Of a stretch of DNA of 64,000 bases, positions 1,141 to 15,516 are shown piece by piece (position 1 is the first letter of the stretch; each line of letters begins with the position of its first letter). The DNA comes from Chitinophagales bacterium (lineage in GTDB: Bacteria; Bacteroidota; Bacteroidia; Chitinophagales; UBA10324): positions 62,001 to 126,000 of the forward strand of contig JAIBAY010000002.1 in assembly GCA_019694975.1 (NCBI GenBank). The letters run 5' to 3'. The position numbers and the translations under genes are program-made. The notes under the pieces are model-generated. The model worked only from the letters and a program-made list of their open reading frames with translations, was not told the origin of the DNA and did not search any database.

Positions 1141-2337
1141 ATGCAGGACATTCATCCACTTTTTTCAGAAAGGCGTACTATTCTCATTTCTTCCTCGCCC
1201 TATATCACTACTTACGTGAAACAGGAAGTCGTGACTTTGGGCTTCCAGGTAACAGCAGAAGGCTTCACGACTGTGGAAACGTCAGGAACTTTTGAAGACT
1301 GCATGCTGCTGAACCTTCACTTACGAACGGCTAACCATGTGTATTTCATGGTTGAAAAATTCACGGCAGCTACCATGGATGAGTTGTATAGCCTGGTAAC
1401 GGCCATTGAATGGGAAAAAATTCTCCCTGCCGATGGCTTCTTCAGTGTGCACAATGTGAGCAATCATGAAGAAGCCGGCAATACCATGTTTCTCAACCTG
1501 CGGGTTAAAGATGCCATCGCTGATCGTTTTATGAAGGTGTTGGAGAAACGCCCTGATTCCGGCTCGGGAAAGGAACGGGCAGTACTGTTTATTTTCTGGA
1601 AAGATCATGAAGCATTTCTTTACATCGACACTTCCGGCGAACCGCTGACTAAACATGGCTACCGCAAAATATCTATGAAGGCGCCCCTGCAGGAATCACT
1701 TGCTGCCGCTATGATTATGGCCACGAAATGGAATACGGCCGCCACTTTCATCAATCCAATGTGCGGCAGCGGCACGTTGGCTATTGAAGCCGCTTTGATG
1801 GCCTGCAATAAGTCACCGGGGCTCATTCGATCTAACTACGGATTCATGCATGTCTCAGGTTATGCGCCGTCCGTTTATGATGAACTGCTTGCATCCGCAG
1901 AAAAAAAAGTGCTGCCGGTAACAGGCTGTAAAATAATTGCGAGCGACAAAAGTATCGATGCCCTCGAAGCTGCGCGAAGCAATGCGCAGCTTGCCGGTGT
2001 GCAGCACCTTATCCAATTTATTAAAAGCGATTTCGAAAGCACACCCGTTCCTGAAGAGCCCGGTGTTGTCATGTTCAATCCGCCCTACGGTGAACGGCTT
2101 GGCGCATCAGAGGAACTGGAAATGCTCTATGCACAGATTGGCAATTTCCTGAAAAAAAGCTGCAGGGGATACTGGGGATATATTTTCACCGCTAACCCTG
2201 AGCTCGCAAAAAAGATCGGGTTAAAAACCAAACGTAAAATTGATTTTTACAACGGTCAGCTGAAATGCAAATTGCTGGAATTTGAACTCTATGAAGGAAC
2301 CAAAAAGCGAAAGTCAGACGAATCCGGGGATGCATGA
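1141..2337 (+). CDS. THUMP-domain class I SAM-dependent RNA methyltransferase (RlmL N-half-like)
   Basis: This 398-residue protein matches the THUMP/UPF0020 methyltransferase family, represented by Bacillus YpsC and the N-terminal half of E. coli RlmL, which make N2-methylguanosine in 23S rRNA. The N-terminal ~160 residues fit the ferredoxin-like plus THUMP region. The SAM-binding motif I is NPMCGSGTLAIEAA at about 205-218. The catalytic motif IV is NPPYGERLG at 313-321, the NPPY type that acts on exocyclic amino groups. The length is normal for the stand-alone form. The ATG at 1141 follows a one-mismatch -7 box only a few bases upstream, so the mRNA may be nearly leaderless. It was historically misannotated as an adenine-specific DNA methylase; an rRNA substrate is more likely. 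Confidence 0.85.
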   Translation: MQDIHPLFSERRTILISSSPYITTYVKQEVVTLGFQVTAEGFTTVETSGTFEDCMLLNLHLRTANHVYFMVEKFTAATMDELYSLVTAIEWEKILPADGFFSVHNVSNHEEAGNTMFLNLRVKDAIADRFMKVLEKRPDSGSGKERAVLFIFWKDHEAFLYIDTSGEPLTKHGYRKISMKAPLQESLAAAMIMATKWNTAATFINPMCGSGTLAIEAALMACNKSPGLIRSNYGFMHVSGYAPSVYDELLASAEKKVLPVTGCKIIASDKSIDALEAARSNAQLAGVQHLIQFIKSDFESTPVPEEPGVVMFNPPYGERLGASEELEMLYAQIGNFLKKSCRGYWGYIFTANPELAKKIGLKTKRKIDFYNGQLKCKLLEFELYEGTKKRKSDESGDA

Positions 2338-2524
2338 TGCAATAGTTGGCTGACTGCCCGATTAGAGCTTCTGTTTATTCCACCGCCGGAATTGAACCCA
2401 CCATTTGACATCTCATTTGTTACGGTAACATCAATAACATAATGCCATTTCAGATCGTTTGCCTGTAAGGCATTTGTACCCCTGGCATTTGTCATTTGGT
2501 AATTTAACAGGAAGTTATAACTTC

Positions 2525-2555
2525 GTTGACTAAAACATACTCATAAGTATCTTTT
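2525..2555 (+). promoter_or_regulatory. Candidate Bacteroidota sigma-A promoter for the first haem-copper monooxygenase gene
   Basis: GTTG at 2525-2528 is followed after 19 bases by TATCTTTT at 2548-2555, close to the consensus TTTG-N19-TAnnTTTG. The ATG lies at 2569. Confidence 0.4.
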
Positions 2556-2568
2556 AATAGATTTTTAC

Positions 2569-4158
2569 ATGAAGAAAATTCATACCCTTATACTTTGCCT
2601 GGCGGTAGTCGGTTTAATCCGGCAACATGCGTCTGCACAGGTGTACTGGAAAGATGTTGCATCTATCATTTACGATAACTGTGCCGCCTGCCATCGAACC
2701 GGTGAAATCGGACCGTTCCCTCTCATGTCTTATAAAGATGCTTCTGACCCCGACCATATTTATTCTATTGAGGCATTTGTGAACAGCGGCCTAATGCCAC
2801 CGTGGAAAGCGGACCCGTCATACCGTCATTTTTTGGATGAGCGTGTTTTGTCGACGGAGGAAAAGGCGTTGATAACAGACTGGATAGAAAGTGGGGCGCA
2901 AGCCGGTGATACGACATTGGCGCCTCCGCCACCAGTTTTTGTACCGGGTTCTCAGATCGGTATTCCTGATAAGATACTGACTATGGCAGAGCCCTATTAC
3001 ATTGCCGGCGACGATTCCGATCATTACATGTGCTTCGTATTACCGACCAATCTGCTGAATAGTCAGAATGTGTCGGCTATAGAGTTCCGCCCGGGAAATG
3101 CTGCTGTGGTTCACCATGCTTTTATCTATCTCTGTGATGACAGTTCAGCTTATTATGCTGATCAGGCTACACCGGAATACGGATATCCTTCATTCGGCGG
3201 ACTGGGCAATGGTGTAAGCGCCGACTTTCTTTCTTTGTATGGGCCTGGTATGGCTGCGCGTTACTATCCGCCCGGTTCGGGAATTGAATTTCCACCTAAC
3301 AGTCTCGTAGTGGTACAGATACATTATGCCCCGCTGAGCAACCCTGATAATGACCAATCTTCCATTAACCTTTTCTATTCTCAGCAGGCTGACGTGCGGT
3401 ATGTTTTTGCCAAAAGAATTGGCGAAGGATATATCACCAATCCTCCTTTTAAAATTCTTGCCAATGAGCGCGACACTTTTTTTATGGAGTACCCGATAAT
3501 CAAGGATTATTCGCTCTTTGCCATAGCACCACATCAACACCTGCTTGGAGAATCCTTTATGATTTGGGCTGTGACACCGCAGAATGATACTATTCCACTG
3601 ATCAACATTCCCAAATGGGATTTTCACTGGCAGCTTTTATATAGTTATCCTTTCATGCTGAAAATTCCCCTCGGCTCTAAAATTTATGCCCGTTCGTGCT
3701 ATGACAATACGATTTATAATCCCAACAACCCGCACAATCCTCCGGAGGACGTGCATTATGGGGAATCATCAACAGACGAAATGTGCAAGTATCTGCTCAA
3801 TATGCTGGAATATATGCCTGGCGATGAAGACCTGATTCTCGACAGCAATTACGTAGCTACCAGTAGTGCTGTGGTAACCGGATTAGTGAACACGCCACAA
3901 CTGTATGATCTCTCACCCAATCCTGCTTATGCTTTTGTTACCATTCCATATTACCTGCCTTTTGCGGAACAGGTGCGACTGGTTGTAATAGATGAAGCGG
4001 GAAGGATTATCCGTGAAAGCGCAGTGACAGGACACACCGGATTCAATCAGTCACAAATGGACCTCTCAGGCTTGGCCGGCGGAATTTATTTCATCGTGAT
4101 GAAAACACTCCATAAAGAGATTTCAAAAAAACTGATCATTCAGCCAGAAGGCTATTAG
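2569..4158 (+). CDS. Secreted c-type cytochrome / PHM-like copper monooxygenase fusion with T9SS sorting domain
   Basis: The 529-residue protein has a signal peptide (1-24, ASAQ), a haem c site C38-x2-C41-H42, and a long region resembling the two-domain copper type II ascorbate-dependent monooxygenases (PHM/DBH). Candidate CuH ligands are H182, H183 and H252. Candidate CuM ligands are H322, H324 (APHQH) and M405 (within DEMC, as in PHM and DBH). The spacing of about 70 residues between ligand groups mirrors PHM. Residues from about 443 form a type A T9SS domain (SPNP, then ...GIYFIV...). PHM and DBH hydroxylate C-H bonds using O2, copper and external electrons; the attached haem domain could supply those electrons, which is inference. 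A 60-65% similar paralogue (by eye) follows directly. The substrate is unknown. Confidence 0.8.
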   Translation: MKKIHTLILCLAVVGLIRQHASAQVYWKDVASIIYDNCAACHRTGEIGPFPLMSYKDASDPDHIYSIEAFVNSGLMPPWKADPSYRHFLDERVLSTEEKALITDWIESGAQAGDTTLAPPPPVFVPGSQIGIPDKILTMAEPYYIAGDDSDHYMCFVLPTNLLNSQNVSAIEFRPGNAAVVHHAFIYLCDDSSAYYADQATPEYGYPSFGGLGNGVSADFLSLYGPGMAARYYPPGSGIEFPPNSLVVVQIHYAPLSNPDNDQSSINLFYSQQADVRYVFAKRIGEGYITNPPFKILANERDTFFMEYPIIKDYSLFAIAPHQHLLGESFMIWAVTPQNDTIPLINIPKWDFHWQLLYSYPFMLKIPLGSKIYARSCYDNTIYNPNNPHNPPEDVHYGESSTDEMCKYLLNMLEYMPGDEDLILDSNYVATSSAVVTGLVNTPQLYDLSPNPAYAFVTIPYYLPFAEQVRLVVIDEAGRIIRESAVTGHTGFNQSQMDLSGLAGGIYFIVMKTLHKEISKKLIIQPEGY

Positions 4159-4310
4159 TGCAGGCAGCGTAATACAATCTGAGCAGGCAGTGTTGGCATG
4201 TTTAACAGTTGATAACCGGTGATATCGTAACTTCGCGCACGTGAACAATGAGATTATTTAATCCGTTAGTCACAGATTGCAATCTTCTTAAATAACCATA
4301 CAGCAATAAC

Positions 4311-5906
4311 ATGAAAAAGGGTTCTTTACTTTTTCTCACAGTTGCCTCGGCATTGTTGAATTTTCATAACGCTTCTGCGCAGACACCCGAATGGAAGGAC
4401 GTGGCAGGTATTATCTATAACAACTGCACCACTTGCCATCGTCCCGGCGAAATTGGGGCTGATTATCTAAATGCCACCGGTTACCTCTCACTGGTCAACA
4501 GCCCTTATTTCTACAGTATACCGACACAGTTACAGTCGAAACTGATGCCACCCTGGAAAGCTGATCCGTCTTACCGGCATTTTCTCAGTGAGCGCATCCT
4601 TTCGCAAAACGATATCGATAAACTTTCCGACTGGGTGAATGCAGAAGGCCCGGCCGGTGATACAACACTCGCACCGCCTGCTCCTGTTTTCTCAACCGGT
4701 TCGCAACTGGGTGTTCCCAGTTCGGTGCTTACCATGTCAGAACCTTTCACGGTACCCGGCGACAACAGCGATCATTACCAGGTTTTTGTTTTGCCTTCCA
4801 ACTTGTTTGTTGACCGTGATGTTTCCGCTATTGAATTCAGGCCTGGAAATTCAAAGGTGGTTCACCATGTATTTATCTACACCTGTGACGACGGTTCAGC
4901 CGCAGCGCTGGATGCCACAACACCCGAATATGGATATTCTTCTTTCGGTGGTGCAGGCGAAGGCGTTAACGCTGATTTCCTTGGTTTATATGCACCTGGT
5001 TTACAGGCAAGATTTTATCCTGCAGGCTCTGGTGTAAAATTTAAAGCAGGTACCGATGTGCTGATACAGGTTCACTATGCGCCGGTCACCGAGCCCGCTA
5101 CCGATCAGAGTTCAATCAATCTTTTCTTTACCAATGAAACAGATCTGCGCAAGGTAAAGGCAAAACGTGTGGGTGAACAATACGTTACCGAACCCGTTTT
5201 CTTCATTCCTAAAAACAAGGTACTTACCTTTCATACTGCTTATCCGCTCGATACCACCTATTCCCTGTTCAGCATCGCGCCACATCAACACCTTATCGGT
5301 AAAGATTTTAAAATCTGGGCTGTTACGCCTGAGGGAGATTCTATTCCGCTCATCTACCTGCCTCAATGGGATTTTAACTGGCAGATGTTATACAGTTATC
5401 CGTTTATGGTGAAACTGGAAGCAGGCACTGTTCTTTATGCTGCTGCTACCTATGATAACACATCTAATAATCCGAATAATCCGAATAATCCTCCTATCAA
5501 TATCGGGTATGGCGAGTCCTCCTATGATGAGATGTTCAAATACTTCATGAATTTGCTTCCATACATGCCCGGCGATGAAGATATTGTTCTTGACAGTTCC
5601 TGGCATCCTGTTGGCGTGCCACCGGTTGGTAGTATTGTAAAAACTCCGCAGCTATATTCACCGTCACCTAATCCCGGAAGCAATGAAGTGGCCCTCACCT
5701 ATTACCTTCCCAGAAACTCCGCTTTCGCCCTCGATGTATATGATTTGTCAGGGAGGCTCGTTACTTCCATTAAGGATGAAGTGATTGCCGGTGCAGGCCT
5801 GCGTCGCAATATTTTAGATGTCAGCCAATTTGAAAACGGAACCTACTTATGTACGTTGCAATGTGAAGGAAAACTGATTTCGAAGAAATTTGTGGTGCAA
5901 CATTAA
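4311..5906 (+). CDS. Second secreted cytochrome c / PHM-like copper monooxygenase fusion with T9SS domain
   Basis: This is a tandem paralogue of the preceding gene (531 residues, 152-base gap) with the same architecture: signal peptide (ending ASAQ), haem site C39-x2-C42-H43, a PHM-like two-copper core and a T9SS type A tail from about residue 445. All candidate metal ligands are kept: H185, H186, H255, H325, H327 and M408. The Met motif reads DEMF instead of DEMC, so the neighbouring cysteine is lost. The segment after the haem motif also differs (DYLNATGYLS in place of the more usual GPFPLMSYKDA), suggesting a changed docking surface or substrate. A weak -7-like box TAACTTCG occurs at 4228-4235, so it may have its own promoter. 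It ends just before a strong bidirectional terminator. Confidence 0.8.
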   Translation: MKKGSLLFLTVASALLNFHNASAQTPEWKDVAGIIYNNCTTCHRPGEIGADYLNATGYLSLVNSPYFYSIPTQLQSKLMPPWKADPSYRHFLSERILSQNDIDKLSDWVNAEGPAGDTTLAPPAPVFSTGSQLGVPSSVLTMSEPFTVPGDNSDHYQVFVLPSNLFVDRDVSAIEFRPGNSKVVHHVFIYTCDDGSAAALDATTPEYGYSSFGGAGEGVNADFLGLYAPGLQARFYPAGSGVKFKAGTDVLIQVHYAPVTEPATDQSSINLFFTNETDLRKVKAKRVGEQYVTEPVFFIPKNKVLTFHTAYPLDTTYSLFSIAPHQHLIGKDFKIWAVTPEGDSIPLIYLPQWDFNWQMLYSYPFMVKLEAGTVLYAAATYDNTSNNPNNPNNPPINIGYGESSYDEMFKYFMNLLPYMPGDEDIVLDSSWHPVGVPPVGSIVKTPQLYSPSPNPGSNEVALTYYLPRNSAFALDVYDLSGRLVTSIKDEVIAGAGLRRNILDVSQFENGTYLCTLQCEGKLISKKFVVQH

Positions 5907-5952
5907 CCCTGCATGTCATTCATAAGCAGTCAACCGCATTTTTTACTTTAAC

Positions 5953-5990
5953 AAAAAAATCCCGTCTGTCTGGATAGACGGGATTTTTTT
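5953..5990. terminator. Bidirectional rho-independent terminator
   Basis: CCCGTCT (5961-5967) pairs with AGACGGG (5976-5982), flanked by an A-tract on the left and a T-tract on the right that extend the stem. It lies between the convergent monooxygenase and DoxX genes and can serve both strands. Confidence 0.85.
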
Positions 5991-6048
5991 ATGCCACTTG
6001 CCTTGACCGACAGCATAATCTTTCAAAATGCTGTCTGAAATTGCGGCC

Positions 6049-6525
6049 TTACTCGGCCTCCTTCTTCAGCTCATCCTGCCAGTCATGATCTTCGGGATGC
6101 TTTTTCATATACTCATCCACTGACCATGGCCCGGAACCTTCCACTGCAAAAAAGCACAACAGAAAAAGTATAAGTACAGAAAACCACAATTCAGCTGAAG
6201 TAGAAGTGAATAAGCCACTGTCGAGGTTAACAAACAATACTGCCCCGATCAGCACCGGTAACTGAAAGATGGCTGCTGTTCTGGTGAGCAATCCTACAAT
6301 TATCATGATACCGCCGACCAGGTGAGCAAACGCAACATAATGCGCCAGCCAGAATGAAACCTGCGCAAACCTGCTGTGATCAATCAGCTGCTGCAACGAT
6401 GCTGTGTCACTTACAAAAACGGCTCCCCGCCAGAGTATTATAACGCCGAGCAGAATACGTAAAATATCCAGCCATTTCGGGTGATGCTTGTCACCCCATG
6501 TTTCAACTCGATGAATCAGGTTCAT
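6049..6525 (-). CDS. DoxX family inner-membrane protein
   Basis: The 158-residue protein has four hydrophobic helices (about residues 20-37, 63-82, 88-105 and 112-130). The first carries the DoxX-type pattern LDILRILLGVIILWRG. Family members are small quinone-linked or redox-associated membrane proteins, originally the small subunit of archaeal thiosulfate:quinone oxidoreductase; most bacterial homologues have no proven reaction. The C-terminal ~30 residues are charged and cytosolic-looking (DEYMKKHPEDHDWQDELKK). It is transcribed alone and ends at the shared terminator. The start is the ATG at 6525. Confidence 0.8.
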   Translation of the reverse strand: MNLIHRVETWGDKHHPKWLDILRILLGVIILWRGAVFVSDTASLQQLIDHSRFAQVSFWLAHYVAFAHLVGGIMIIVGLLTRTAAIFQLPVLIGAVLFVNLDSGLFTSTSAELWFSVLILFLLCFFAVEGSGPWSVDEYMKKHPEDHDWQDELKKEAE

Positions 6526-13412: not shown

Positions 13413-14270
13413 ATGATGAATAATATGAACAAACTGATTCTTCTGCCAATGACATTGATGATACTTACTTCCACCACGATGGCACAGCAACAAAAATCCT
13501 GCTGCCAGGCACCTTCCTCAACAGTTGCCTTCGCTTCCTTCGCCGGGCAAACTGCATTTACCGGTGCGCATGAATCACCACTGCCGTTAACATATGCCGG
13601 GCAGGGAAGCATGATTACCTACAACACACCGGATGGAAAAACAGGCAGTGCCTACCTTGTGCCCGCTGCGGGCAAATCCAACAAATACCTGTTTGTGTTC
13701 CAGGAATGGTGGGGGCTGAATGATTACATCAAAAGACAGGCTGACATCTATGCTGATTCATTGAAAGATGTAAACGTTTTGGCTATTGACCTCTATGATG
13801 GCAAGGTGACTTCAAATCCTGAAGAAGCAGGCAAACTGATGCAATCAGTGAATGATACCCGTCTCCGGAATATTATCACCGGCGCCTTTGCTTACGCGGG
13901 GAAAGGTGCAAATGTGGGAACCGTTGGATGGTGCTTCGGAGGCGGATGGTCGATGCAGGCCGCATTGATGGGTGGAAAACAGACGAAAGCATGCATCATG
14001 TATTATGGTATGCCGGAAACGGATGTGGCCAAACTAAAAAACCTGAACAGTGATGTGATTTTCATGTTTGCAAAAAAAGATCAGTGGATCAATGAAGACG
14101 TCAAATCAGCCTTTATTAAAAACATGCAGACGGCGGGAAAGAAACTGACGGTAAAGGAATACGATGCTGATCACGCTTTTGCAAACCCTTCAAATCCGCA
14201 TTACAACAAGGAGTTTGCTGATGATGCTCAGCAAACTGCTATCCGCTATCTGAAAGCTGCGCTGAAGTAG
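13413..14270 (+). CDS. Exported dienelactone hydrolase family protein
   Basis: The 285-residue alpha/beta hydrolase has a signal peptide (cleavage near TTMAQ) and the Cys-type catalytic triad of dienelactone hydrolases: nucleophile C174 in GWCFGGGW, D223 in AKKDQW and H254 in DADHAF. E98 in QEWWGLN corresponds to the conserved Glu that tunes the cysteine. Cytosolic family members open dienelactones in aromatic degradation; exported Bacteroidota members have no proven substrate. A double cysteine (CC, residues 30-31) at the mature N-terminus is unusual and could be redox-active, since thioredoxin-like proteins follow. In-frame ATGs at 13416 and 13425 are alternative starts. Confidence 0.85.
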   Translation: MMNNMNKLILLPMTLMILTSTTMAQQQKSCCQAPSSTVAFASFAGQTAFTGAHESPLPLTYAGQGSMITYNTPDGKTGSAYLVPAAGKSNKYLFVFQEWWGLNDYIKRQADIYADSLKDVNVLAIDLYDGKVTSNPEEAGKLMQSVNDTRLRNIITGAFAYAGKGANVGTVGWCFGGGWSMQAALMGGKQTKACIMYYGMPETDVAKLKNLNSDVIFMFAKKDQWINEDVKSAFIKNMQTAGKKLTVKEYDADHAFANPSNPHYNKEFADDAQQTAIRYLKAALK

Positions 14271-14403
14271 TTGATGCAATTCAGCATAGAACTCTATTAT
14301 TTAATCGCTGTTGAAAGGCATTCTGTTAGGAAGAAATATAAGTTGGTCGAATTTTTGTCAGTGGCTGCGCTTCCTGCTGAAATTAATCCCGAATTTCGAA
14401 ACC

Positions 14404-14886
14404 ATGATGAGGACACTGTTCATTTCATTTATGATGACTTGCGGAATATCGTCTGTGTATGCTCAGGAGCTTAATATTGTAAATTATGAAGAATTAGAAA
14501 ACATACTGGCCGCTTCACCCGGGAAGGCGAAACTTGTTAATTTTTGGGCTACATGGTGTAAGCCGTGCGTGGAAGAACTTCCCTATTTTAATGCATTACA
14601 GAAGGAGGCAGATGATAAATCGCCGGAATTTATTTTCGTTTCGCTGGACTTTATGTCTCAGACTCCAAAGGTGAAAGACTTGATAAAAAGACTCTCGCTG
14701 AACGGAACGCAGTTGCAACTGAATCAACCCGGCGGTGAATGGATCGATCAATTTGACAGCAATTGGTCTGGCGCTATTCCATACACCATCTTACTTCTGC
14801 CCGGCGGTGAAAAAATTGAGCATTACGATGCTTTTGACTCAGTGGAAGAATTGAAATCATTCTTAAATAAAAATATTGTTAATTAA
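14404..14886 (+). CDS. Exported TlpA-like thioredoxin-fold protein
   Basis: I start the protein at the ATG at 14404, which gives a signal peptide (MMRTLFISFMMTCGISSVYA). The longer frame from 14311 would bury this peptide inside. The mature domain (about 140 residues) has the thioredoxin fold with the redox motif WATWCKPC and the cis-proline loop AIPYTILL. TlpA/ResA-type proteins reduce disulfides in periplasmic clients such as apocytochromes. The gene sits 133 bases after the hydrolase and 12 bases before a second thioredoxin-like gene, forming a probable exported redox operon. The client protein is not evident. Confidence 0.85.
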   Translation: MMRTLFISFMMTCGISSVYAQELNIVNYEELENILAASPGKAKLVNFWATWCKPCVEELPYFNALQKEADDKSPEFIFVSLDFMSQTPKVKDLIKRLSLNGTQLQLNQPGGEWIDQFDSNWSGAIPYTILLLPGGEKIEHYDAFDSVEELKSFLNKNIVN

Positions 14887-14898
14887 ACTCCTTAAAAG

Positions 14899-15516
14899 AT
14901 GAATATGAAAAAATCAGTGCAAATTTTAGCAGTAGCTCTTGTAGCTATTACATTCCTCACTTCGGCAGCTACTAATGGATATAAAGTGGGTGATACTGTT
15001 AAAGACTTCAGTCTTAAAAATGTTGATGGCAAAATGATGTCGCTGAAGGATAACACCAATGCGAAGGGAGCTATTGTCATCTTTACCTGCAATCATTGCC
15101 CTTATGCCAAAGCGTATGAACAACGTGTGATGAATCTGGACAAAATGTACCGCAGCAAGGGATTTCCGGTAATCGCCATCAATCCGAACGATCCTGTTGC
15201 CGTACCGGATGATTCTTATGACAACATGGTAAAGAATGCACGGCAGAAAGGATATACTTTTCCCTACCTGTTTGATGAGACACAGCAGGTCGCCCGTCAG
15301 TTTGGTGCAGCACGCACCCCACATGTTTATGTATTGAACAAGACCGACAAAGGATATGAAGTTGCTTACATTGGCGCCATTGATGACAATACCGAAGATG
15401 CCGGTGCCGTGCAACATAAATACGTGGAAGATGCCGTGAATGCACTGCTGAACGGAAAAACTATTCCTGTAACTGAAACCAAAGCGGTTGGTTGTACCAT
15501 CAAGTGGAAATCATAA
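14899..15516 (+). CDS. Exported AhpC/TSA-type thioredoxin-like protein
   Basis: The 205-residue protein has a short signal peptide (NMKKSVQILAVALVAITFLTSAA) and a peroxiredoxin-like thioredoxin fold. The usual redox pair is replaced by the motif NHCPYAKAYE, with a single Cys in the CxxC position. Further family marks are VIAINPNDP, FGAARTPHVYVL and the C-terminal VGCTIKW. Such 'thioredoxin family / redoxin' proteins are frequent in Bacteroidota and Planctomycetes, often beside TlpA-like partners as here. A second conserved Cys lies near the C-terminus and could act as resolving residue. It follows its neighbour after 12 bases and ends at a strong terminator. Confidence 0.8.
   Translation: MNMKKSVQILAVALVAITFLTSAATNGYKVGDTVKDFSLKNVDGKMMSLKDNTNAKGAIVIFTCNHCPYAKAYEQRVMNLDKMYRSKGFPVIAINPNDPVAVPDDSYDNMVKNARQKGYTFPYLFDETQQVARQFGAARTPHVYVLNKTDKGYEVAYIGAIDDNTEDAGAVQHKYVEDAVNALLNGKTIPVTETKAVGCTIKWKS

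Follow-up and report, generated by a model that had tools for sequence, protein, structure and literature searches.

We analyzed a tandem pair of genes on the forward strand of a 64,000-nucleotide stretch of Chitinophagales DNA (hereafter, the window). Gene 1 (positions 2569..4158, 529 aa) encodes, from N- to C-terminus, a signal peptide, a putative c-type cytochrome domain, CuH and CuM domains resembling those of PHM (the monooxygenase half of PAM, EC 1.14.17.3, 1PHM), and a T9SS type A sorting domain. Gene 2 (4311..5906, 531 aa) is a tandem paralogue of the same architecture, and the two proteins are 53% identical from end to end. The signal peptides, read off the sequence, lie at the start of both proteins; that of protein 1 putatively covers residues 1–24, ending in ASAQ (2569..2640). 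Promoter and terminator scans over 2200–6200 gave hits at chance level only.

In protein 1, the haem-attachment site is CAACH (residues 38–42, 2680..2694), followed by M76 of an MPPW motif (2794..2796), the probable distal haem ligand. The candidate CuH ligands, assigned by profile alignment and conservation, are H182 and H183 (3112..3117; PHM H107/H108, DBH H262/H263) and H252 (3322..3324; PHM H172, DBH H333), and those of CuM are H322 and H324 (3532..3540; DBH H412/H414) and M405 (3781..3783; DBH M487). The counterparts of the last three in PHM, which we take to be H242/H244 and M314, were used with these numbers in the spacing comparison below. The sorting domain occupies residues 443–529 (3895..4155). 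Protein 2 repeats this arrangement at positions located by script: CTTCH at residues 39–43 (4425..4439), M79 of MPPW as the probable distal haem ligand (4545..4547), H185 and H186 (4863..4868) and H255 (5073..5075) as CuH ligands, and H325 and H327 (5283..5291) and M408 (5532..5534) as CuM ligands, with a sorting domain matched by Pfam/NCBIfam profiles at residues 453–530 (5667..5900). A preliminary description of this DNA had proposed, for both proteins, a CxxCH haem site together with six PHM/DBH-type copper ligands in the right order and spacing. All of its coordinates and residue numbers were reproduced by script in both proteins, and the positions, conservation, and spacing reported here agree with that proposal.

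Family profiles connected the copper core to PHM and DBH. The Pfam profile Cu2_monoox_C scored 24.1 bits in protein 1, above its cut-off of 23, and 21.7 bits in protein 2, just below it; Cu2_monooxygen, with a match spanning H182–H252, scored 22.9 and 21.9 bits, both below the cut-off of 30. When the PDB was searched with a single sequence, no match was returned, and DBH and PHM were reached by the family profile only, which by sequence alone ranked DBH 4zel best (3e-7) and also matched PHM 1yjk (3.7e-6). In the profile alignment, five of the six ligands (H182/H183, H252, and H322/H324) align with the copper histidines of DBH and PHM. A profile of the CuM domain only found no PDB chain, so that Met405 is not sequence-aligned to PHM; this sixth ligand was assigned by its position and the Pfam range, as it falls within the Cu2_monoox_C match and outside the HMMER alignment. 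Successive ligand groups are 69/70/81 residues apart, which fits the 64/70/70 of PHM (CuH positions from PMC6123673) and the 70/79/73 of DBH (positions from PMC4846438).

Homologues were gathered by a scan of 84,980 genomes, which yielded 500 relatives, and 80 loci were kept. The scan seeds were MPPWKAD and P[KQ]WDF[HN]W; the conservation of M76 was thus partly selected for, and neither the copper ligands nor CxxCH were part of the seeds. Conservation was measured on 90 proteins (the kept loci and those of the window's own genome) and again on a curated alignment of 82 rows, which are 33–56% identical to protein 1. In both sets, C38, C41, H42, M76, H182, H183, H252, H322, H324, and M405 were invariant where aligned (the haem-attachment site in 90/90 and 82/82, M76 in 90/90), and the six copper ligands, CxxCH, and the distal Met were also kept in 20/20 distant relatives of another phylum. 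Loss of the six residues in homologues had been named beforehand as evidence against the copper assignment, and no homologue in the three sets lacked them. Further invariant residues of the homologue alignment include E404, W350, F352, Q355, N380, N384, P226, and G227, among others.

An AlphaFold2 model built on the homologue alignment reached a mean pLDDT of 90.7 and a pTM of 0.79. In a Foldseek search of the PDB with this model, the first 31 matches were all DBH or PHM, with DBH at the top (best E 5.7e-13), and the next unrelated match followed at 3.6e-6. Superposition on 1PHM, the structural check suggested in the preliminary description, gave a VIA-align Z of 22.3 over 261 residues (3.1 A, ~17% identity), and that on DBH a Z of 20.6; the predicted fold is thus that of PHM. 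Based on this modelled two-domain fold and the six ligands, the protein is a member of the PHM/DBH copper type II monooxygenase superfamily.

The best VIA-align row outside PHM and DBH was the C-terminal domain of mirolase (8qb1), a T9SS sorting domain, which matched residues 443–525 (Z 11.8, 1.6 A). The Pfam profile Por_Secre_tail was above its cut-off in both proteins (37.1 bits in protein 1, where NCBIfam TIGR04183 scored 33 bits), and the genome encodes the T9SS translocon protein SprA (2545 bits). The predicted tail, its structural match, and the translocon together argue for the T9SS route that had been proposed for this pair.

The N-terminal 109-residue domain, folded alone, was modelled as four helices (pLDDT 86.5). 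Its fold search returned weak rows only, cytochromes c6 and cd1 among them (best cytochrome Z 2.8, Foldseek E >1). Cytochrome_CBB3 of Pfam was below the cut-off in both proteins, and a profile of the haem domain matched CcoP and c6 weakly. The assignment as a c-type cytochrome follows from CxxCH and Met, both invariant, and from these weak c6/CcoP profile matches; CxxCH with a distal Met is a feature of class I-like c-type cytochromes and was present in 90/90 homologues and 20/20 other-phylum relatives. Genes for cytochrome c assembly are present in the genome. The earlier suggestion of a covalently attached c-type haem is therefore supported at the level of sequence by the two invariant features.

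We investigated how widely this fusion is distributed. Four cytochrome-PHM copies were found in the window's own genome, namely the window pair, a T9SS-tailed copy (C2:338829-340382), and one without a T9SS tail (C1:715215-716552), and full-length matches occurred in 16/16 genomes of the same family. A tally of 61/61 was discarded, as it was inflated by matches to the T9SS tail, and the tail-less profile A3 was used for the distribution counts instead. With this profile, 21 of the 296 Bacteroidota genomes matched at 1e-20, and in the planctomycete sample (the phylum of a MAG titled Pirellulales, hence the name used here) 45 of the 119 genomes matched at 1e-3 and 42 also at the stricter 1e-20. 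A search with the copper domain only gave 29 newly fetched loci in the planctomycete sample, all of which (29/29) carry CxxCH 139–147 residues before the HH pair, together with MPPW. Among the 29 Bacteroidota loci found in this way, 15 have CxxCH at the same 139–147 distance and one is cut by the contig end; the other 13 form a second class with the motif SHHF[ILV]xY, which either has no CxxCH or has one ~173–180 residues before HH without MPPW. Hence, the fusion of cytochrome and PHM core is the rule in the planctomycete sample, and Bacteroidota have it alongside the second form. It is thus a usual bacterial form and not a peculiarity of the window locus.

Compared with PHM, the window proteins have the same two-domain copper core, in which the order of the six ligands is identical and their spacing nearly so, but they extend it by a putative c-type haem domain in front and a T9SS tail behind, and they have no PAL. 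DBH (4ZEL) likewise has an N-terminal accessory domain ahead of its copper core, which is a DOMON beta-sandwich with a cytochrome-domain fold that lacks haem ligands and is haem-free (PMC4846438), and a C-terminal dimerisation domain that is absent from the window proteins. No DOMON domain was found in the window proteins, which have the helical CxxCH domain in its place; a haem-bearing bacterial counterpart of the DOMON arrangement of DBH would be an interesting parallel. The bacterial PF03712 proteins of the planctomycete sample and of Bacteroidota have the same cytochrome-PHM architecture and the same invariant residues. Many of those in the planctomycete sample begin with an AhpC/TSA redoxin domain, and Pfam detected no T9SS tail on them; the window proteins carry the tail, and no redoxin gene adjoins theirs.

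The preliminary description had also raised hydroxylation or amidation of peptides, the reaction of animal PHM, and for this we found no support. PHM Arg240, Asn316, and Tyr318, which we take to bind the carboxylate of the peptide, correspond to A320, K407, and L409 of protein 1 and are variable in the family. At the Arg240 position, two residues ahead of the first CuM His, both window proteins have Ala and most family members have Ala/Phe/Met/Leu/Thr; the Asn316 and Tyr318 positions (M+2 and M+4) are mostly Leu/Tyr/Val/Lys and Tyr/Pro/Phe, respectively. The disulfide cysteines of PHM have no conserved counterpart in the 82-row alignment, where the two haem Cys alone are conserved, and no PAL or NHL-repeat was found in either chain or among the flanking genes scanned. 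A true bacterial peptidylglycine alpha-hydroxylase making amidated peptides would share the PHM fold and ligands, as these proteins do, and Q250, two before the third CuH His, matches PHM Q170 and is found in 75 of the 82 rows. However, the residues at the carboxylate-binding positions differ from those of PHM, and the flanking genes scanned include no PAL; this argues against peptide amidation and makes such an enzyme very improbable here.

In the established chemistry of PHM and DBH, CuH and CuM each take up one electron before O2 is activated at CuM. We consider the attached haem to be the likeliest donor to copper here. The occurrence of CxxCH 139–147 residues before HH, with MPPW, in 29/29 planctomycete-sample loci points to a rigid arrangement and supports the haem as a part of the machine. 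The window proteins are probably O2-dependent, secreted dicopper monooxygenases of the cell surface, in which copper would be reduced by the attached c-type cytochrome instead of ascorbate. As proposed, Sec would carry the protein across the inner membrane, its CxxCH would receive haem c in the periplasm, and T9SS would export the protein to the outer surface. There, an external donor would reduce the haem, which would pass electrons one by one to the CuH copper (three His), and a second electron would move from CuH to the CuM copper (His-x-His and Met). O2 would then bind at CuM and give one O atom to a C-H bond in an extracellular substrate that is either small or exposed. Since each turnover of PHM chemistry consumes two electrons and a single haem holds one, the haem would need to be re-reduced from outside. 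The earlier notion of a self-contained hydroxylase is therefore too strong, as the fusion would exchange one donor for another and an outside donor is still needed.

A working precedent for electrons passing from a haem domain to an extracellular copper monooxygenase is cellobiose dehydrogenase, which feeds LPMOs. The likeness is one of operation only: cellobiose dehydrogenase carries a b-type haem on a DOMON fold, and it is a polypeptide separate from the LPMO, a mono-copper enzyme of unrelated copper fold.

It is also conceivable, if rather unlikely, that the PHM/DBH-type core is active and fed by ascorbate or a soluble reductant, with the haem domain as a sensor, structural element, or electron outlet. 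PHM works without a second redox domain, the DOMON of DBH has a cytochrome-domain fold and binds no haem (PMC4846438), and the second PF03712 class of Bacteroidota has the same copper core without a haem domain, from which it follows that this core does not need haem in general. On the other hand, in the homologues examined CxxCH and Met are never lost, and they stand at a fixed distance from the copper domain in two phyla, which would be unusual for a dispensable domain.

The neighbourhood of the genes offers a further component. Of ~104 cytochrome-PHM copies, 42 have a gene for an AhpC/TSA redoxin of ~120–206 aa next to them on the same strand, in most cases no more than 80 bp away, and none has one adjacent on the opposite strand. 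In the redoxin cluster, a C-terminal GC motif is present in 41/41 members counted and CxxC in 28/41, and most of the others keep the first Cys as C-x-I-S or similar. In other-phylum relatives, a domain of this kind makes up the N-terminal part of the same chain and closes with the GC motif just before the haem domain. Several loci (L008, L031, and L073) have in-frame N-terminal extensions that might have been redoxin fusions, but these resemble out-of-gene reading and were dismissed; those of L031 and L073 had no Pfam match at E 0.01. The tail-less copy of the window's own genome (C1:715215-716552) has a redoxin with a lipoprotein-like start upstream (L105:7846-8421). The window pair has no adjacent redoxin, and a member of the same sequence cluster lies on the forward strand at 14899..15516; being 9 kb away, it is linked to the pair by family only. 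Neither BLAST clusters of neighbours nor a Pfam tally of 84 flanking proteins revealed another conserved neighbour. The redoxin may serve in peroxide removal, thiol exchange, or copper loading, and in the many relatives that have it beside or fused to the enzyme, it would deal with thiol or peroxide by-products or load copper.

As the one conserved neighbour in the genomes is a thiol-redox protein, the enzyme could also be a copper oxidase or dehydrogenase, in which electrons would run from a substrate (thiol, Cu(I), or phenol) through copper to haem, with the redoxin as thiol partner and no O insertion; the haem could just as well accept electrons. Both copper sites are fully conserved, including the weak Met of the O2-binding site, which fits a monooxygenase, and we know of no characterised member of the PHM/DBH fold that runs as an oxidase or dehydrogenase, which counts against this reading. 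We regard it as quite improbable and retain the monooxygenase.

In animals, the two-copper core of PHM and DBH makes hormones and noradrenaline, and its electron supply, with ascorbate and long-range transfer between the coppers, has been studied for decades, above all in the animal proteins. Since Pfam recognises the copper domains, the family is already known to databases. We found no description of the cytochrome-PHM fusion in the literature, although most subscription journals lay outside the search and this absence is weak evidence. The enzyme superfamily is thus a known one, and the architecture found here is real, widespread, and apparently undescribed. Somewhat more tentatively, at a little under even chances, these proteins would represent an ascorbate-independent bacterial dicopper clade with haem c as built-in donor, the redoxin as third module, and an extracellular substrate, constituting the usual bacterial form of PHM/DBH. 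If so, the haem-free DOMON of animal DBH would be a parallel, degenerate version of a haem-donor arrangement. A widespread haem-attached form would allow electron entry to be followed optically and timed within one chain, and a bacterial form would show what work the PHM/DBH family does outside animals.

The window's tandem pair goes back to an old duplication. In a 42-row tree, the first copies (of the window, L006, and L007) and the second copies (of the window, L005, L006, and L007) formed separate clades with supports of 99/95 and 100/95, respectively, indicating that the duplication is older than these lineages and that both copies were retained. The same tree shows that tandem pairs also exist in other genomes of the family, as a set distinct from this one.

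The DoxX family gene at 6049-6525 of the window is convergent with the two cytochrome-PHM genes (2569-4158 and 4311-5906, both on the + strand), and the same gene order, again with DoxX on the opposite strand, was found in relatives (L007/L110). Because DoxX lies on the opposite strand in this conserved order, its position next to cytochrome-PHM genes is synteny, not an operon. In five genomes of the window's own family (L108, L109, L111, L112, and L113), a DUF4199 membrane protein gene, assigned by Pfam in L109 only, follows the cytochrome-PHM gene or genes on the same strand, with a gap within ~70 bp.

Some cytochrome-PHM proteins have a C-terminal TPR domain (L140 and L148). At L049:2311-4605 and L054:5050-7551, a stop-free frame runs from an upstream fatty-acid hydroxylase gene (domain tested in L054) into cytochrome-PHM, representing either a natural fusion or two in-frame genes.

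A second class of PF03712 proteins in Bacteroidota carries the motif SHHF[ILV]xY and keeps the copper motifs; CxxCH is absent from L193, L197, L198, L202, L207, L208, L211, L217, and L218 (frames of ~443-527 aa), and some class members have lipoprotein-like starts. In L204, L205, L206, and L212, CxxCH is present but lies at another distance from the HH pair.

Window positions 13413-15516 hold a dienelactone-hydrolase-like gene followed by two adjoining redoxin/thioredoxin genes, the last of which shares a C-terminal AVGC motif with redoxins encoded beside cytochrome-PHM genes.
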